DNA of 34,884 bases from Chromera velia (lineage: Eukaryota; Sar; Chromeraceae), in NCBI GenBank assembly GCA_018398765.1, contig JAHBMJ010001757.1, forward strand, positions 73,184 to 108,067. The letters are read 5' to 3'. The translations under genes were made by a program, and so were the position numbers. The notes beneath the pieces are model-generated. The model searched no databases, was not told the DNA's origin, and saw only the letters and a program-made list of their open reading frames with translations. This document shows positions 230 to 33,034 of the stretch, in pieces (the first letter of the stretch is position 1; each line of letters starts with the position of its first letter).

Positions 230-420
230 TCTCTCAGAGAGAGAGAGAGAGAGAGAGAGATACAGGTGCACTGGGATGCAAACATACAGACAAATGCAAA
301 CACAGACAGACGCAGAATCGCAAGCATGCATGCAAGCACGCGCACACACAAACGTGGGGGCGGGGGGCAGGAATACAGACCGCCAGACATACAGGCGGAC
401 CATGCATCAGCCGCATTTAG
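1..420. repeat. Microsatellite cluster: G-run, (CA)n and (GA)n
   Basis: The window opens with a 12-base G run. A (CA)n-rich stretch follows around 150–192, then two (GA)n blocks at about 203–229 and 236–260, separated by a short GTCTCTCA segment that can pair back on the GA tract. The sequence is then CA- and CAGA-rich to about 350, with a G-rich patch near 353–368. Open frames exist on both strands here but encode only His/Thr or Arg/Glu runs, as expected of a translated microsatellite. I see no gene. The G run at the very edge may reflect a contig end. Confidence 0.9.
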
Positions 421-1221
421 AAAGAACCGGGAGGTCGTCGACCAAAGAACCCACTCAAAATCGGCATGGGAAAGAAGAAGGAACGCATGCCTGCTTAAGC
501 CGTTACAGAACTTTGCTACTTTGTGTTCCTCTCCCCTTACATTGTTCTCTATCAGCTAGTCTGCTGCGTGATGAGCTCCAGGTTCCGGAGGTCGATACGA
601 GCGCGCGGTCTGCTTGTTGATACGAGTGAATGTGCGCCCCTGGTGTTTTGTTTCGACCTGCTTTGGGGGATCAAGAAGATCTGTTTCCCCTTTCGACCCC
701 TCGCGTCCTTATTTGTTGCCCCCATGGCTAATCTTCTCCTGAGCCGTTCTTTTTCTTGTCCTAATTTTCTGCAGCCGAGCTGGGTCGAACACTTCAGTCT
801 CCAAAGAGGCGTCGAGCTGAGAAGACAACGCTTATCGGCGAGCTGATTGTGTGCATGAGGGGCGATCAATTGATTGCGCAATAAAAATGTAATAAAACCA
901 ACTCGGACCGCAATGAATGGGAAGCGTAGTCAAAAGTTTTGTTCACTCAATCATGCAGACGTATACTACAGATCCGTTGAGAGTTATTTGACACTCGTAG
1001 TACTAGTCTAGTACTAGATGATACACGAGATCATTAGATCGACTTAAAAAAAAAAAAATTAGTATACAAAATTATGAGTCCTGACCTGTCTGATGGTTCT
1101 GTGAATTTTATTATGAATCGATTTCATACTAAAATTGCAGCAATTCGCTCTAGAATTCACTGAGTAAGATTCATTATAGCAATTTATAGGACCTAAGTAG
1201 AACTAAAAAATTAGACTAAAG
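421..1221. other. Intergenic, no gene seen
   Basis: Mixed-composition sequence to about 880, then AT-rich sequence up to the inverted-repeat element. Short ORFs overlap on both strands with no recognisable domain. A small palindromic cluster of GTACTAG words occurs at about 998–1018, and a 13-base A run lies near 1046. Nothing here can be called a gene. Confidence 0.6.
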
Positions 1222-1488
1222 CTCCCTAAAGAATTGGGAGTTGAATAACTTGAATTGGGTGTCGAATTGGTAGTACTACTAATTTTTTACCGTCAGTAAC
1301 TCCCAATTTTAAAAAATTAGTACCTAGTTTAGTGAAAGAAGTACATGAAGTTTGAAGCTAAAATTTTGTGTACGGGCTAGACAGGGGCTCACTAGTCTCT
1401 AGCCGCAGTTATTAGACTCTAATTCATTATTAGGAACAAATTTTATAAACATTTAGAATCACCTAAAAATTGGGAGTTACCAATTTTT
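1222..1488 (+). repeat. Left terminal inverted repeat of the 1222–2950 element
   Basis: This 267-bp arm matches the reverse complement of 2693–2950. It carries a 9-bp insertion near 1244–1253 relative to the right arm. At 11 of the 13 substituted positions this arm has A or T where the right arm has G or C. Confidence 0.88.
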
Positions 1489-2082
1489 TTTTAGGACTAA
1501 CTACCAATTTTTAAGAAAATCAACACCCAATTTTTTTTTTGGGACTACCAATTTTATAACTTCTCCTAAAAAGTAAAATATATGTGGAAAGAAAAAACGC
1601 TGTAATAAAACAGTGTTGCGGCTGCACAGAACTTCATAAATCCATAACTTTTGTATAGTTTCATAGTGTTATTCATGCTCGAAGTCCCTCCCGGCGTGAC
1701 ACATCGGCAAAATATACTTGTATGGCTTTCTTTCTCTTGCACAACCACGCAAAAACCAGATCTTCCAGAATAAAACGATCATATGAATAACGTCCCCCCT
1801 GTAGAATAAAACGTTTGCAAACCTTCTTATGATACGATTCAAAGCCGTAGCATTTCGCTGTGTTCAACCCCCCAAACCGGCGGATCCACACCGGGAAGTG
1901 CGAGTAGAAGTGAGTCTTCGGGACCGCCCACCCATAAGACGGCAGCTGCTAGTCTTCGTAAGCCTCAAGGTGGGAGAGAGAACGAAACGGATCAAGGGAA
2001 AGAAAAAAAAAAAAAGAAGAATTTTAAATTGAAAAGTGAAAGTTCTTGTCAGCGCCTCCCTCCTCCCCAGCGCTCTACAACC

Positions 2083-2493
2083 ATGGTCGTACAAAGCCGA
2101 CAGAGGGAGAGGTCAAAGGAAATGGACGAGGATGGATTTGTTATCCCCACCGAGTTTCGGGAGAGATTCGCTGTGGAGAGAGAGCTGAACATCGCTCATA
2201 CAATGTTTTCAGATGTCAAGTTCACCGTGAAGATTTGGGAGCTGAAAGAGCTCACAGATGATCACAGAAAAAAGGCAGACATCGGAATTTTCCCAGATGA
2301 TTCCTTAGTCGTTTTTCAGTACACCCATGTTGTCCCCCCCCAAAATCTATCAGAGGAGAAGAAGAAGGAATATAATCTCCATTTGAGGCGTCTGGGAACC
2401 ACTAAGTGGGAGATGTTCGGGAGAGAGGGGCATGATCTGAATAAAGATCAGCAGCCACTGTCCGGCATATGGAGGGATTATGAATTCTGGTAG
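2083..2493 (+). CDS. Hypothetical 136-aa protein inside the TIR element
   Basis: The ATG at 2083 sits in a strong Kozak-like context (CAACCATGG), and the frame is open for 136 codons to TAG. The protein is charged and soluble, with no signal peptide or membrane segment. It opens with a basic MVVQSRQRERSK stretch. A mixed alpha/beta-looking middle follows (e.g. FSDVKFTVKIWELKEL, then SLVVFQYTHVVPPQ), and the end is rich in Trp, Gly and Asp (GIWRDYEFW). I do not recognise the family. I see no DDE or DDD triad, zinc finger or helix-turn-helix, so it does not look like a transposase, although 136 residues is too short for a complete one. It is intronless, unlike its neighbours, and lies wholly between the inverted repeats. 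It may be captured host sequence or an accessory protein. That it is a real ORF is likely; function is unknown. Confidence 0.6.
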   Translation: MVVQSRQRERSKEMDEDGFVIPTEFRERFAVERELNIAHTMFSDVKFTVKIWELKELTDDHRKKADIGIFPDDSLVVFQYTHVVPPQNLSEEKKKEYNLHLRRLGTTKWEMFGREGHDLNKDQQPLSGIWRDYEFW

Positions 2494-2692
2494 GCTTACA
2501 TGGTCAATTAGATCGATTTTCACTCTGTTTTTTATACTGGTACGTGCAGCTTGTGTAGAGCTGTCCACTGTCCGTTTTGCATTGCATTAGCGGTGCACTA
2601 TGACACATAAAACAAAAGTTTTAAGTTGACTCCCAATTTTTTTTTTTTTTACTACCAATTTTTTTTTCGGCGGTCCTAAAAAATTCCTATTT

Positions 2693-2950
2693 AAAAATTG
2701 GTAACTCCCAATTTTTAGGTGACTCTAAGTGTTCATAGAATTTGTTTCTAGTAATGAATTAGAGTCTAATGACTGCGGCTAGAGACTAGTGAGCCCCTGT
2801 CTAGCCCGTACACAAAATTTTAGCTTCAAACTCCATGTACTTCTTTTACTAGACTAGGTACCAATTTTTTAAAATTGGGAGTTACTGGCGGTAAAAAATT
2901 GGTAGTACTACCAATTCGACACCCAATTCAACTCCCAATTCTTTAGGGAG
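2693..2950 (-). repeat. Right terminal inverted repeat of the 1222–2950 element
   Basis: This 258-bp arm is about 95% identical to the left arm once the 9-bp gap is removed. Inside it, at 2630–2690, lie further copies of the short ACTCCCAATTTT and ACCAATTTT words interrupted by T runs. Confidence 0.88.
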
Positions 2951-3107
2951 AACAACATTGATTTAGCATGATCTGCCACTGACAATTTGCTGGGGTATAC
3001 ACCAATGCCGGACCACTGCACCTCTGGTCGGACGCACTGGGACGGCAGAAAACTGACAACACCATATACAACACCATATATGAATCATAATATAATAAAT
3101 TGTATAT

Positions 3108-3139
<32 letters not shown>

Positions 3140-3239
3140 AATATAAAGTTTTAAAATTTTCTATCTTTTTCAAAATATTATGCATGTAGGGCCTAGAATA
3201 CTATGTTATCCAGAAAGCCTAGCGCGGAACTAGGCGCAG

Positions 3240-3281
<42 letters not shown>

Positions 3282-4228
3282 AGTACTGATAATGATGAAT
3301 CATTGATGATCAATTAATTAAATAAATGAATGAATCTCATGGCAGACTCATGCACTTTTTAGCTATTGAACTTTGAAACTTCAAAGACCTGGCTTATAAT
3401 TTTTATAAAGAGAGAAAGATTCAAAAAAAGGGAGACACACAAAGATTGCAAGCAAAGATAAAAACCAAGTGACACTCTGAAAAAGTCTAAGACGTTTGCG
3501 TTCTTCCGTCCAGCCAAACACCCTACTCGCTAGAGGAGTTTCCCTCCAGATTAATACAAAGGTCTTCTTGTGTTTCTTTTCTGTTGCAAGTTGACGCCTT
3601 GCAATTTCTTTGCGTCAATCGATTGATTGACTTCATCAGACATGAAAGATGCGGAGGCAGCCAATCAGCAGCAAGAACACCACGAAGTATCAGCTTTCAG
3701 CTGTGTCACCTGCAGGCAAAAAGAACGGAAAAGGGGATGGTAAATTTACACGTATGAGAAGGTTAAACTTGTCATCGCTTTTGTAGCAGACGCAGACAAA
3801 ATGTGAAAAACAAAAACGCCTGTCACGAGCGAAGCGCAAAAAGACAAAGACGAGACCCGCAGAGATGCACGGAAGGAACAAAAATAGCAAGAACGAAAGG
3901 GGGGGGGACCCGCTCTCGTCGGTTGCCAAGCGCCTGAATCAGTGAGTGAGTGATTGGCCGGCGAGGCATACTTCTTCACTGAGGCAGCGGCTCATCCCGT
4001 CAAACGAAAAAAGCTCGTGTCTCTAGCTGCGATCCTTTTCACATACATGCACCGGATTTGCTCACCTTTTGATCCCGCCCGGGATCATGCGTTGTTTATT
4101 CCATCGGTCCTATTTCGGGCTCATCGGGTCGACTTCCCACGGCAGGAGTATATCCACTTTGTCTCGGATCTCCATCCTTTTCATCCGCAGGGAGACTCTG
4201 CTCAGCACAGAGACCGGAAGCCATACGC
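2951..4228. other. AT-rich intergenic region with (TA)n and (CAAT)n
   Basis: A (TA)n tract runs at about 3114–3139. A GC-rich stem-loop (CCTAG…CTAGG) at about 3219–3235 stands immediately before about ten tandem CAAT units at 3242–3280. The rest is mixed sequence. The ORFs here are short, overlap on opposite strands and show no domain, so I call no gene. Confidence 0.6.
3242..3280. repeat. (CAAT)n tetranucleotide microsatellite
   Basis: About ten uninterrupted CAAT units directly follow a short hairpin (CCTAG, 7-base loop, CTAGG). A hairpin followed by a simple tail is a common 3' end for non-LTR retroposons. A similar arrangement occurs near 34289–34336, so this may mark a retroposon 3' terminus. 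Confidence 0.8.
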
Positions 4229-4563
4229 GTGCACCGAGAAAGAGAGAGAGAGAGAGAGTCGAGGTATCGGTATGAATGTTCGAATAAAGGTCGCGTATCG
4301 ATGAACATGTTTGTCCGGTTTGTGGAGGAAGGGAGAATGGGACGTCAGGAACAAAAAAGTAAGCGAAAAAAGCAGTTGGACGGACAGACCGGAGCGAGGG
4401 TTGTCAAGATGCCTCGACCCCTCTCTGGCTTCTCACACTCCCCGAGCCACACGTCACGACAGCAACAGAAACACATACACACTCACACTCACACAAACTC
4501 TCTCAGACACGCGCGCCCACACACACTCACATGTGGAGAAACAAAGCTGCGTCTAATGGAAGG

Positions 4564-4569
4564 AAGAGC

Positions 4570-4617
<48 letters not shown>

Positions 4618-4649
4618 AACTGACCGACCTTACAGAAGAGGGACCACAT

Positions 4650-4688
<39 letters not shown>

Positions 4689-5339
4689 GAGTCGTATTCC
4701 CTCACTCTCTCTCTCTCTCTCACTCACTCACACACTCCCTCCCTCCCTCCCTCACTCACTCACACCCTCACTCACTCTCACCCTCACTCACTCACTCCCT
4801 CACTCACTCACTCACACGTCACACACTCCCTCCCTCACACACTCCATTCCTCACACACTCCCTCCCTCCCTCACTCACTCACACACTCACTCACTCACTC
4901 CCTCCCTCACACACTCCCTCCCTCACTCACTCACTCACTCACTCACACACTCACTCACTCACTCAATCACTCACTCACCCACTCCCTCCCTCCCTCCCTC
5001 ACTCACTCACTCCCTCCCTCCCTCACACACTCCCTCCCCCCCTCCCTCCCTCACTCACTCACTCACTCACACACTCACTCAATCACTCACTCACCCACTC
5101 ACTCCCTCCCTCACTCACTCACCCATCCACTCGCTCATTCACTCACTCACTCGCTCATTCACTCACTCACTCATTCACTCACTCACTCACGCACTCACTC
5201 ACTCACCCACTCACTTACTCGCTCATTCACTCTTTCACTGACACACTCACTCACTCACTCACTCACTCACTCACTCACTCACTCACACAGTCTTACACTC
5301 CCTCCCTCCCTCACTCACTCACTCACTCTCTCACTCACA

Positions 5340-5379
<40 letters not shown>

Positions 5380-5380
5380 G
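4564..5380. repeat. Large CTCA/CTCC simple-sequence array with GA, CT and CA flanks
   Basis: A (GA)n tract at about 4573–4613 is followed by (CT)n and (CA)n at about 4651–4688. About 650 bp of 4-base periodic CTCA, CTCC and CACA units then run to about 5340, closed by (CA)n at 5347–5378. The plus strand is almost pure pyrimidine plus A. The array gives a long open plus-strand frame (4229–5401) made of Ser, His, Thr, Leu and Pro repeats, which I treat as an artefact. The array abuts the 3' end of the minus-strand gene at 5331–6741, and the (CA)n tract overlaps its last codons. Confidence 0.92.
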
Positions 5381-6741
5381 ACCGACCGACCTTGCAGATG
5401 AGACACCACACAAGGGCACCAGTGAAGACAAGTGCGTAGGCGACGAGAGACCAAAACAGCTCCGTGTTGCAGTAAATCCACGAAGAAGGTTCCTTGTGGG
5501 TGGCGCAGTATTCATCCTTCTCTTTCCATGAGTATGGAATGTAGGGTGCGTGTTCCTTGTGAGGCTCTGGAGTCACTGGCATTTCCGGGGCGGTTGAATT
5601 CACGGGTGCAGCTCGCATGCTGGGAGGCTTCTGCTGCCAGCGGCATCTCTCCTGCAGAAACAATCGAAAGAATCGAGCAAACAGTGAACATCTGATTGAT
5701 GGAAAAGTGCTCTTTACGGAGGCGGCTGGCGCATGCAAATTCATCCTTCTGACCCACACGAATGGTACAATAGAAGTGGGGCAGAAGCTGCATGGAGAGG
5801 GCGGCAGTTCCTCCCTGGGCTGGGTGTCGTATGGGAATTGGAGAGGAGAACATTGAGGTAGTCAAGATCGAAGGGGGCTGGGAGAAGACGCAAAAGAAAA
5901 GTGATGGGAGAAGAGCAGAGAGGGAAGATAGGAGAAGAAAGAAAGGCAAATTGGAATCAAAGTGGGAACGAAAGAAGGAATGAATGGAGGAAGGGCACAA
6001 CGTCAATAGCATGCAATACCGCGTGAGCCAGTGATCATTCGAGCGATCATTCACCTGAGCGTCCAACAAGTTTCGTCTCAGGTCTCTTCCTCTGTGATTT
6101 TAAGGGAGAGTGGCCAGGCATGCGCACAGACGTGCGCTTACACACACACACACACGACTTGAAAAGCGGCCGAACCTCACTTACCAAGCACTTCAAATGT
6201 TTGTACGCGTCTCCACTCCCCAGCTGGTCGCACTGCTTGCGGCACTCTTCATATTCTGCAACGCACACAGAATGAATGGATGAGACAAGCCACGAAAAAT
6301 AAAGGATCGGACGCGCCCCTCATTTGCCGGGCCCCTTCACGTTCTTTATTCCGAGATGGACCCACAGACGGGGCCGTGCAACACCTAGACAAGCACCCAC
6401 ACCAGGCAGATGCTAATGTCAACTCTTCGCCCCCCTCCCATGCTCACCCGAGCCTACTTACTGTAGTCAGTGACGTCTGCCTGAGGCCCCACGATGTTTG
6501 ACTGTGTCGGGTTTTTTTCCTTCGCCTCTACCGGGGGGGGGAGGGTGGGGGCACTCTCAGTCAATGCAGCTGCCGACAAGATGGCCTCACTGGCAGACAG
6601 CACCTCACTGACGCCAGATTGGGCTGTGCCAGAAGAAGAAGACAGACACCCACTCAATAGGCAGACAAAGATGGAGACAAACAACACTTGCTTGAATCCA
6701 TTGCCTCCTCCTGTCCCTACTGGGGGAAGTCTAAAAACCAT
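5331..6741 (-). CDS. Putative membrane protein with twin CX3C motif (3 exons)
   Basis: Three exons join in phase: 6741–6462, 6255–6185 and 5651–5331. The introns start GTAAGT and end CAG. The product is 223 aa if read to the first stop. Residues 17–33 are hydrophobic (signal peptide or anchor), followed by a Ser/Ala/Pro-rich linker. Cysteines 98, 102, 116 and 120 form CX3C–X13–CX3C, the spacing of small Tim chaperones and other disulfide-relay substrates; the second intron falls between residues 117 and 118, inside the last CX3C. Two more cysteines (166, 178) precede a membrane span at about 183–203 with Cys near its end. The last 19 codons run into a GT microsatellite and read as a VC repeat. 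The true end may therefore be a donor after codon 204, with another exon beyond the CTCA array. The cysteine pattern suggests an oxidising compartment (mitochondrial intermembrane space or secretory lumen). That is inference; no family is recognised. Confidence 0.7.
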
Positions 6742-29113: not shown

Positions 29114-30560
29114 GAGATGGAGGCAGAAAGTTAGGGAGAGCTTGTCCGAAGAAGAGAGGCAGGAGCTGGTTTAATCAAGTCAAGTCAATCGACCCTTCTG
29201 ATCTATGCGTTCGTGATGGATGGATGAGGGGGTGGATTGCGGTGTCCTCTGATCTGTTTCTTCTGTTGTCTGTCTTCTCAGCTGTCAGGTTTTGGTTTGG
29301 TCGGGATGGATTCAGTGATTGGCTCCCCTGACCCTTTACTGCTTGCTTTGCATGAGATCTCTTTTGTGGTACCCCCTGAAAGGGAGCCTGGCAGTCGTCT
29401 GACGTCTTGTCTGGGAAAATTTCGCAGTTTGTTTGGACAATTGAAACTGAGAGAGATGCGATGCTCTCTGTGTCTGTCTTTGAAGTATACGGGAGAGGGA
29501 GGGGGTGAGTGGAAGAGGACAGAGAGAGAGAGAGAGAGAAGAGAAGAGAGAGAGAGAAACAAGAGTCGGAACGTCAGACAGGAAACATGGAAGAGAGAGT
29601 GGATGGAACGGAAATCACAAGGAAAAAGAAGTCTTTCTTTGCATCAATCAGAGAAGGATCAGTCGTGCGATGATGAAGCGAAGGAACGAAGAAAGGAAGA
29701 ACGGGTAGATCCACCAATATCTGATTGATTGATGGAAACCCTGTTTTCTTCACTTTTCTGCTCTCGTATTATGCCTTTTTGTGTAGCGTGCCTACGTGCC
29801 TCTTTGTTGTATCGTTTTTCTTTCTGCGCGCATATCATGAACGGAGGGGAACCTGTAGGAAAGTCCGCCGAACTTCCTGCGTGTTTTTCTTCCTTATGCA
29901 TATCTCTGTTTTTCGATCTGTCGTGGCGTGCTTCTCGTTGTTTGTCTTGTTGTGTACAAAATCATGCGTTTTCTTGTGTCGCATGTTGTTTGTTTTGTCT
30001 TTTTGGACGTTCGTGGAAGTGGAGCAGTGAAGTCATCTCGTGAACAGCTGGGGGAAAGGGGGTCATGTTGATGTTTGGCAACTGCACCTTCTGCAAATTC
30101 CCTGCATGCGTGTTCTCAGTGTTGTGTGTGTGAATCACAACAGTGGAGTTGGCGCCAACAGACTGAGAAGAGAAGAGCAGGTGGTGTTTGATGGCGGAGT
30201 CGATGCTGACCTTTTTTTGTCCTTATCTTTGCGTCTCTCCATCTCTCACTTTGCGTGCTGGGCCGTTGCAGTTGCGCTTCTGTCAGAGAAGCCTACGAAA
30301 GGAAATTGCGGGATCGTGGACAGGCTCTGCAGTGCGCACGTAGTCTGTGTATTTTCAATAATACCTTGGCAGTGCTGCTCAACCTGCAAGGATCCTACTG
30401 CGGAGGCAATTCCACTGAGGTCAATTGAAATCCTCCGTTACCTATGAACACTGGCACGTCCCAGAACACGTCTATAAAAACATGTATTCAGACAGTCTAA
30501 CAGTATTCTGGCTGCTAAATCTAGCATACATTCCACAACCGTGTTTTTTACTAGCGTTCA
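29114..30560. other. Intergenic region between the VTT gene and the LINE
   Basis: Probably begins with the 3' UTR of the VTT gene. A (GA)n-rich stretch lies at about 29519–29557. Plus-strand ORFs of 100–163 codons occur (29237–29728, 30040–30447) but show only Arg/Glu repeats or hydrophobic low-complexity sequence and no domain. I call no gene. Confidence 0.5.
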
Positions 30561-30589
30561 CAAGCTTCATTGTCAGTGAATTTATCATC

Positions 30590-33034
30590 GGTGTTTGTGT
30601 GCTTGTAAAAGAGGAACGGTGGAGCGAGCTGAAACCCGAAATCTCCCTTATGGGCCCGAGTCTAGTTGAAGTGAAGATTATAGTGGGTGGGCGCAGGGTG
30701 CATGTATTCGGTTTTTACCTTCCCGGGTCCTGGTCCGATCACAGGGACAGTAGGGTCCCTGACCTCTTGAAGGATGTATTTGGGGGGGTCCCTCTTAAGG
30801 CAGACAGGGTGGTGATGGGGGATTTCAATGCGTACTCAGGCAGCCTCGTCCCCAAAAATCTTTTGTGGTCCCGTGCAGATCTCCTCCTCCCGCCGAGGGA
30901 TTCTGGGGGGGTTGATGGGAGGGGAAAAAATGATGAGGGCTCGGAGGAGCCTGACAGACCCTCGTTCGTCTGCACGTCTCAGTGCAGCAAAGACGTTAAC
31001 CGCAGTGGGAGGGACTTTATTCAAATTTGTAGTGATATGAATCTTGTTCTTTTGAATGGACTGACGGGAGAAGCAGGGGGAGAGTCCTTTATTTTTCCTG
31101 GTGAGTGCACCCACTATTCTAGACAGAGCAGCATGTCTACGCCCACTTCCCTCATTAATTACGTACTTACTGATCCATCTACCGTACAGAGGGGTTCTAA
31201 TTAGGAGGTTGACTTTGATGGTATTGCCTCCACCAACCATGTGACCGTTTCCTTCTCCTTCTCCCCTCCCTCGGCCGAACCCGAATTTGAAGATGCTCTC
31301 CCACCCCACCAAAACCTCTCTGATTGTCCTCCCCTTTTCTGTTCAAACCGCACAGCCCCAGTCTCTGATGAAGAAATCGCGCCGCTTGCAGCAGTAGTGA
31401 GACTGTTTGCTGAGGATTAATGGCCTGGCTTGTGGGCCTATCATGAGCAGATCGAACCATTCGAGGAGCCGCCTGCTCCTCCGCCTCCCCCAGTGTCCCC
31501 GCATCCCCAACCAGGGCTGACTTCGGAGGATGGTGACGATCGTGTATGTCTGCACAGGTTAGTTGAGGAATGGTCGCGTGTGCTGGTAGGGCCAATCAAG
31601 CAGACAGGGGACAAGGGGCCTGGCCTAGAAGGTAGACGATCAAAGAGAGAGGCATGGTTTGATTTGGAATGTAAAGCTTTACAAAAAGAGGTTAGAGAGG
31701 TAGACGAGAGATGGAAGCTAGTGAGAGATGGGAATGGAAGGGGAATAGAGTTTGATAGACTGCAGAGGCTTCTCCGGGTTTGTCATACTCTGTTCAAAAG
31801 AAAAAGAGTTGCGTGGGAGAGAGCACAAGCCCGGAGGGTACAAGAAGAGTTGTTAAAAGACCCGTTTGCTATCTGGAAGAGAAAAAAAAAAGCTGCCTCA
31901 GCTGGGGGAGCCTCCTGTCCTTCTCTACGTGAGTTCTTGAATCATTGGGCAAGGGTGTTTGAAGATAAGAATGAAGAGCCTCTCCCTTCTGCCCTCCCAC
32001 CTGCCCCTCCTCCTTTCCACCCTTCTATTTTACCCTTCTCTTTCCATCAAATCTCCTCTGCTCTAAAGAAAATGAATAGAAAGAAAGCCTCCGGCCTTGA
32101 AGGAATCTCCCCCGCTCAGTTTGACCTTTGTTTTACACACTTGGTGTGCTCTCATTTTTTACTTTTTGTTTTATTTAATTGTATGTATATCTTTGTATGC
32201 TGGCCTCCCTTCTGGAATATACTACGTATCTGCCCTGTTCCTAAAGGCCCTGCCTCTCCTTCTCCCAATGAATAGAGGCCTATTCACGTTGTCAACCCTT
32301 TCGCAAAACTTTTTGGTTTGCTGATGGATGGCCGTCTGCGCTCTCAAGTTGAGTTTGACGTCAGGTAGTTAGGTTTCAGACAAGGGGTGGGAACGAGGGA
32401 AGGGGTAGGCGTACTTGTTTCTGCCATTCTCTCCTCTAAAAAGAAAAAGAAAGCTCTGCTGGCAGGCTTTGTTGATTTTTCTAAAGCCTTCGACACTGTG
32501 TTAAAAGGTAAGCTAATTCAGAAACTGAGAAGAGAAGGTGTGTGTGAGGCAGATGTGTGTATGATATATGTAATGTACAGGGAGGTCTGGGGAAAGGTAG
32601 ACGGGGACTCTTTACGTTTTCAGAAGGGCGCTGGGGTAAAGCAAGGTGATGCTCTTTCTCCCATTCTCTTTCTTATCTATATCAATGACCTTCCCCGTGT
32701 GTGTTCAGTTAGTAACAACGAGGGGACCGTAGACAGAGAAGCAGAGAGAGCAGGATGGTCAGGCAGCAAAATGGGGGAGGGCAGCATCGAGGAGCCCGAG
32801 AGAGAGCCCAAACCTGCCCTCCTTGACAACTGCATCTTAGGCAGTCTGGGGTATGTGGATAATTTCTGTTTCCTTACTCATTCCGTCTCAGATCTACAAA
32901 AGAAGTTCTCAGCCTTGGAAAGGTATTGCAAGGAATGGGGATTGACTGTGAACTTAAAGAAAACGAAAATCTTACGCCTGTCTGCCTTGGCTCTGGGGCA
33001 GTCTGCAGGTAGAGTCATATATGGTGGGAGCTAG
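30590..33034 (+). pseudogene. LINE ORF2-like: endonuclease plus reverse transcriptase, four internal stops
   Basis: A single frame (that of 30425–33034) carries both domains despite stops at 31202 (TAG), 31418 (TAA), 32273 (TAG) and 32366 (TAG). The endonuclease part has VHVFGFYLPGS and the catalytic VVMGDFNAYSG at about 30809–30838. The RT fingers read KKASGLEGISPAQF near 32074–32120, then P-x-NE-stop-RPI, and stop-LGFRQG where families have QFGFR. The palm has LAGFVDFSKAFDTV (32459–32500) and VKQGDALSPILFLIYINDL (about 32635–32692). The active-site box reads YVDN (32852–32863) instead of the usual Y/F-ADD: the second catalytic Asp is replaced by Asn, which should abolish polymerase activity. 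LTVNLKKTKIL follows, as expected. The ORF is dead on two independent grounds. Confidence 0.88.

Follow-up and report, generated by a model that had tools for sequence, protein, structure and literature searches.

The locus considered here raises the question whether a pair of long inverted arms around an intact reading frame marks a transposon that has captured a host gene, a transposon with an unfamiliar protein of its own, or a rearranged piece of host DNA. It lies in a stretch of 34,884 nucleotides of the Chromera velia genome (assembly GCA_018398765.1, contig JAHBMJ010001757.1, positions 73,184 to 108,067 of the forward strand), in the following called the window. Our analysis indicates that the element very probably is a non-autonomous, internally deleted member of a family of cut-and-paste DNA transposons related to the CMC clade, to which CACTA/EnSpm, Mirage and Chapaev belong.

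The inverted arms reported in a first-pass annotation of the window were recovered in two ways. A repeat search of the window paired 247 nt at 1250-1496 and 2685-2931 without gaps at 94% complementarity, and a genome search with the element as query paired query positions 1-275 with 1464-1729 at 91% identity. The bounds of the element were set where the alignments of its copies begin and end (query 3 and 1727) and by the ends of other copies (Table 1); of the originally proposed span of 1222 to 2950, the outermost two bases on each side, CT...AG, belong to the flank. The ATG-started frame of 136 codons, here called ORF136, is present as described. It had been regarded as the only frame of the interior, which in fact holds more, because the C-terminal end of a transposase gene on the minus strand had been overlooked. 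The tblastn match of this remnant reaches position 1969, across an in-frame stop and past the deletion junction. An Rfam search over the window gave 0 matches. Elsewhere in the window, long simple-repeat tracts (CTCACTCA, CA or GA) occur near the element at 4629-5383 and 119-274, and the plus strand at 30425-33031 carries pieces of a non-LTR retrotransposon, namely an endonuclease-like frame (PF03372, E 0.00048, below the cut-off) and a reverse transcriptase (PF00078, E 1e-16).

Table 1. Features of the element, in window coordinates
Feature	Position	Strand	Remarks
Whole element	1224..2948	.	1725 bp, CCCTAAAG...CTTTAGGG; read as an internally deleted, non-autonomous copy
Left terminal inverted repeat (TIR)	1224..1496	+	Found by repeat search and genome search
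Right terminal inverted repeat (TIR)	2685..2948	-	Identity to left TIR 91.7%
AATTGGKWR cluster, left end	1232..1553	.	9 words, both orientations
AATTGGKWR cluster, right end	2630..2940	.	9 words, both orientations
Transposase C-terminal remnant	1673..1939	-	88 codons and stop
Deletion junction	1937..1941	.	Query breakpoints 716/719; about 750 bp extra here in copy L013
ORF136	2083..2493	+	136 codons, ATG start; open copy of the probable second protein of the family

Searching for further copies by the terminal repeats had been named as a check on the transposon reading, and the assembly (177.8 Mb in 4040 contigs) proved to contain many of them. With the whole element as query at least 148 matching pieces were found in the 40 scored of 163 first-look candidates, and with the left arm alone at least 43 pieces in the 40 scored of 213 candidates; the scored matches of both searches together fall on at least 63 contigs, and five of them, the window copy included, cover the full query. 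Ends and flanks could be set for 33 copies, 31 from the window's family (with the window copy as L048) and two from a sister subfamily, after exclusion of copies with a missing, truncated or interrupted end or an end of contig (L014, L016, L019, L023, L028, L034, L037, L038, L041, L042, L043, the outer copy of L032, L049, L051 and L052). Their termini typically read CCCTAAWG with slight variation. Identical dinucleotides flank 30 of the 33 copies as scored by script, and 31 when L054 is read directly (TA/TA), compared with two of 33 in a control taken 5 bp further out; three identical flanking bases were seen at none of the 33. Among the 30 script-scored copies the duplications comprise ten dinucleotides, with TA the commonest (11/30), and in this flank comparison the target duplication was absent at L017 and at the window copy. 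Moreover, two empty sites were found, in which the joined flanks of L022 align to an uninterrupted repeat in L019 and those of L015 to one in L029; in both alignments the joined flanks carry two surplus bases, as expected from a 2-bp duplication. In two further flank pairs, L012/L036 (80% identity, several gaps) and L032b/L026, the junction is ambiguous. The reading as a DNA transposon with TIRs and further copies is thus borne out. An origin by inverted duplication of host DNA on the spot would agree with the missing target duplication at the window copy, but it is extremely improbable in view of the numerous copies, which lie at different places in the genome, share their ends and come with 2-bp duplications and empty sites.

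Several other loci deserve mention. The element L046 (1692-3368) has the most similar TIRs among the 33 copies compared (99.2% over 256 nt) and is possibly the newest insertion in the set. Near back-to-back TIR pairs of the window's family, MITE-like and about 0.55 kb long, occur at C214:23527-24077, C454:14624-15140 and C96:14315-14880. The 6.4-kb locus L050 was considered as an autonomous copy and rejected, since it consists of a 1.7-kb element and a 4.7-kb insert with reverse-transcriptase pieces. This insert (416-5132, element coordinates 270-4986) carries endonuclease/reverse-transcriptase-like pieces, and it matches in part sequence that lies outside the elements at L035 and L040.

The internal deletion becomes apparent from the comparison with longer copies, in which additional sequence is present at query 716-719. 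A fuller layout, probably the parental one, was found in the sister element L053, which spans 3652 bp with TIRs of 276 nt at 97% complementarity, a target duplication AG and the same CCCTAAAG end as in the window, and which has the transposase gene on the plus strand and an ORF136 homologue divergently on the minus strand. The same layout, in frameshifted pieces, is found in L035 (2975 bp) from the window's own family. Both genes of L053 are broken, by two stops in the ORF136 homologue and by a single stop (2555-2557) in the transposase frame at 1757-3571, and an autonomous copy with both genes intact was not found. The transposase comprises at least about 600 aa and runs leftward in the fuller form. 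In L052 and L054 the frame starts at the position of the L053 stop, so the sister subfamily seems to share this stop; in the window's family, L058 and L035 encode an amino acid at this point. The shared stop may have been inherited as a defect in a lineage that was mobilised, or it may reflect a process akin to readthrough.

On the reading that we favour, the fuller form, represented by L053 and in pieces by L035, would consist of TIRs of about 270 bp ending in CCCTAAWG, a leftward transposase gene and a divergent, rightward ORF136. The window copy would have lost most of the transposase gene and retained both ends, so that the transposase of fuller copies could mobilise it in trans; insertion would leave the 2-bp duplications seen at other copies and not visible at the window copy. 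The sequence of L009 and L010 likewise runs uninterrupted across the deletion junction, and the flanks of these two loci and of the window copy show no match among any of them. Hence, on this reading, the short form itself has multiplied.

The origin of ORF136 can be judged from its distribution. The genome contains 83 matches to it, of which 73 are at most 4 kb away from a transposase match, oriented divergently in 71 cases and otherwise in two (C2441 and C539). Of the remaining ten, the two at C431 and C851 belong to loci that have element TIRs, and eight adjoin an element end; seven of these eight were fetched (the end of L064 being cut short), and L051 adjoins an end of the sister type. 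All 83 matches are therefore found in element context and no free host gene is among them. A match at C4019 inside an open frame of 1781 aa was dropped, as it runs into N. The first-pass annotation had offered gene capture by a Pack-type element as one explanation, with ORF136 as a passenger host gene or exon between TIRs. This would suit TIRs around a frame unlike known transposases and the mere transposase remnant in the window copy, but it conflicts with the distribution of the 83 matches and with the presence of a homologue at a like place and in like orientation in a sister subfamily with other TIR words, and we regard it as very improbable. Judged from these matches, ORF136 does not stem from the capture of a host gene, and the situation named in the annotation as fatal to a transposon, a frame found as a host gene and TIRs lacking other copies, was not encountered.

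The unlikeness of ORF136 to known transposases was upheld in the protein families and solved structures searched. Neither ORF136 nor the 191-aa sister protein has a Pfam match, and a PDB sequence search with an ORF136 profile and a transposase piece gave best E values of 0.59 and 0.65. Searches for relatives of both proteins in viral contigs yielded 59 and 597 pattern matches, none of them confirmed. An AlphaFold prediction from the single sequence reached a mean pLDDT of 63.2 for the best model and of 41-45 for the four others, which is too low for any conclusion on the fold. The suggestion that a novel frame could be the transposon's own protein holds insofar as ORF136 belongs to the family; its transposase is a separate, CMC-like gene. 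Most likely, ORF136 is the family's own second protein, standing in place of ORF2/TnpA of the CACTA elements.

Whether this protein has been under selection was asked at two levels of divergence. Between the subfamilies, the 136 codons of the window align without gaps to L051, with differences at 70 third, 50 first and 30 second codon positions; dN amounts to 0.30-0.34 over twelve comparisons (NG86), about 0.32, and dS is saturated, too large to compute. These values and the excess of third-position changes indicate strong long-term constraint on ORF136. Changes among members of the sister subfamily are few and also lean to synonymous ones, both in ORF136 (dN 0.023 and dS 0.110 for L051/L053, 0.026 and 0.111 for L051/L052) and in the transposase (dN 0.037 and dS 0.066 for L053/L054).

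Within the window's family, 25 gap-free copies over codons 1-135 were compared among the fetched loci. The 87 singleton changes fall into 23 synonymous, 56 nonsynonymous and 8 stop changes (28.8/53.6/4.6 expected), and the 75 shared changes into 29/43/3 (29.7/41.3/3.9 expected). Over codons 12-135 with 27 copies, the corresponding counts are 19/56/5 for singletons (26.2/50.5/3.4 expected) and 34/44/4 for shared changes (32.0/46.2/3.9 expected), and the frame is free of stops in 15 of 27 copies compared with 11 of 25 over codons 1-135. The transposase fragment gave singleton counts of 20/40/3 for residues 21-109 (19.6/38.5/4.9 expected; 9/25 stop-free) and 21/52/4 for residues 2-109 (24.4/47.1/5.5 expected; 5/17 stop-free). 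These counts indicate neutral decay of ORF136 within the family, and that the frame is still open in the window copy is accordingly to be read as survival and not as evidence of use. Purifying selection, proposed earlier as something to look for among the copies, is hence undetectable inside the family and strong between the subfamilies.

It might also be argued that ORF136 is kept in the short copies by a cis action or a benefit, for example against silencing, and that short elements are selected as such. The 11 stop-free frames among 25 gap-free copies and the constraint between subfamilies speak in favour of this idea. However, the changes within the family look neutral, the transposase fragment behaves alike, and at a mean divergence from the majority sequence of 3.5% some open frames are expected to survive anyway; selection for the short form is thus quite improbable. 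As an internally deleted family member, the window copy would carry a gene that selection preserved for as long as there were autonomous lineages and that is now decaying in these copies, as the two selection tests together suggest.

The ends of the element were described early on as rich in repeated words, and this impression was confirmed by counting. The pattern AATTGGKWR, picked after the sequence had been read, occurs 19 times in the window, compared with 2.56 on average and at most 7 in 100 shuffles; 18 of the 19 words lie in the two element ends, and half of the count reflects the fact that each arm is a copy of the other. The sister element has 0 such words and shows its own near the ends, AAGTC(N)RGTT six times plus AAAAAGTC, of which AAGTC(N)RGTT has zero occurrences in the window element. 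Identity between the subfamilies is 54-58% for ORF136 and 66-71% for the transposase fragment. According to the available part of PMC2613891, plant CACTA elements have a second protein that binds the repeats of the ends, and this protein and the repeats differ among subfamilies, with the transposase staying similar. The lower conservation of ORF136 and the differing words fit this division of labour, without being proof of it. By analogy, ORF136 would do a job of the ORF2/TnpA type, binding the end words in order to help or regulate excision. It is conceivable, although we hold it rather doubtful, that ORF136 represents a new family of small transposon proteins which recognise end words and change along with them.

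The window copy on its own is ordinary. The two subfamilies in one genome, with the same termini, different end words and diverged second proteins, form a matched pair that could serve as a test bed for the joint change of a helper protein and the end repeats. Should ORF136 indeed recognise the end words, they would provide a compact system to test the divergence of a helper protein together with its binding sites.

The affiliation of the family depends mainly on its transposase. The fragment in the window has 129 matches in the genome, including relatives at 65-67% (for example L052, L053 and L054) and lower. In L058 the motifs follow in the order FTGDD (132), CLDC (155), HDILH (229) and DEGE, which corresponds to the CMCT signature of D, C(2)C, H(3)H and E given in the available part of PMC12730594. 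FCLDC and HDILH are present in the frames of L035, and one signature residue each is missing in L053 (HDILY), L054 (without the first C) and L057 (without the first H). L058 reads LYAND where L053 and L035 have LYADD. No transposase piece reached a Pfam transposase family above threshold. The best match of any piece was DUF1258, obtained with L058 at E 0.041 and 13.8 bits (cut-off 33.1), residues 45-162 aligning to profile positions 96-213 of 253; the other copies and pieces do not match DUF1258, and their remaining matches, HetR_C (E 0.23) and ATP-synt_ab (E 0.24), are at chance level, the rest giving none. The profiles PF02992 and PF06869 gave 0 matches over the genome, with the controls silent too, so that this result is uninformative. 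PF00124, a marker for plastid DNA, had no match in the assembly; its control gave one. Long open frames of more distant CMC-like transposases were noticed in L055 (1655-3400, minus strand, 582 aa) and L056 (992-2356, plus strand, 455 aa); with DVMH/DIMH motifs and two C-X-X-C pairs they possibly represent a second, better preserved lineage, and by profile they align to the transposase group with a probability of 94 and a pairwise E of 1e-7.

A different superfamily with short duplications, Tc1/mariner-like or Harbinger-like, might resemble the CMC group by chance, and TA as the commonest target together with the lack of a Pfam match above threshold would be compatible with this. The targets are not only TA, though, but ten dinucleotides, and the motif order in L058 as well as DUF1258, the Mirage family, as the best weak match speak against it, so that we consider such an assignment quite improbable. 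For CMC elements, target duplications of 2-5 bp and termini 5'-CA..TG-3' 'in most cases' are described. The 2-bp duplication agrees at 31 of 33 copies, the window copy not among them, and the termini here are CC..GG; hence, we call the family CMC-like and do not place it within a named member. A search of the literature, not exhaustive, found no report of this transposon family, and a term search of the main text of the Chromera genome paper (PMC4501334) gave 0 occurrences of CACTA or EnSpm.

In its manner of working, the window copy would resemble a non-autonomous element of the CACTA type. Among the known systems, the family shares much with the TRC elements, that is, SmTRC1 of Schistosoma, the TRCs of Tribolium and Aedes, and Spongebob of Hydra. 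As described in the available parts of PMC1636069 and PMC4298943, these have CCC termini (the Tribolium TIR begins CCCTA), 2-bp duplications (at 7 of 14 SmTRC1 copies) with empty sites, and a C-X-X-C and D-X-[LM]-H motif. The CCC core and the 2-bp duplication are thus found here as well. In contrast, the TIRs measure 10-54 bp there and about 270 bp here, motif I (D-G) corresponds to YADD, box A reads D-I-L-H-X3-E-G instead of the L-G of TRC, and the window's family has a separate, divergent second gene. Because hmmscan of the transposase pieces gave no match to Transposase_21, the family is not filed as TRC. With the plant CACTA/En-Spm elements it has in common the combination of transposase and second protein, deletion derivatives moved in trans (here by inference) and subfamily-specific repeated words near the ends, as far as these are covered in the available parts of PMC4158355 and PMC2613891. 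Plant elements differ by CACTA...TAGTG termini and a 3-bp duplication, compared with CCCTA and 2 bp here, and for this reason the family is not filed with them; its genes are moreover divergent, and ORF136 has no Pfam counterpart. The likeness to Mirage, with which DUF1258 is equated and which is placed near CACTA in the available part of PMC3985635, comes from the sub-threshold match of L058, the other pieces being without one. Judged from the sequences, the evidence reaches as far as a CMC-like (CACTA/Mirage type) transposon near TRC/Mirage, which would combine CCC ends, 2-bp duplications and long TIRs with a divergent second gene of an unfamiliar kind.
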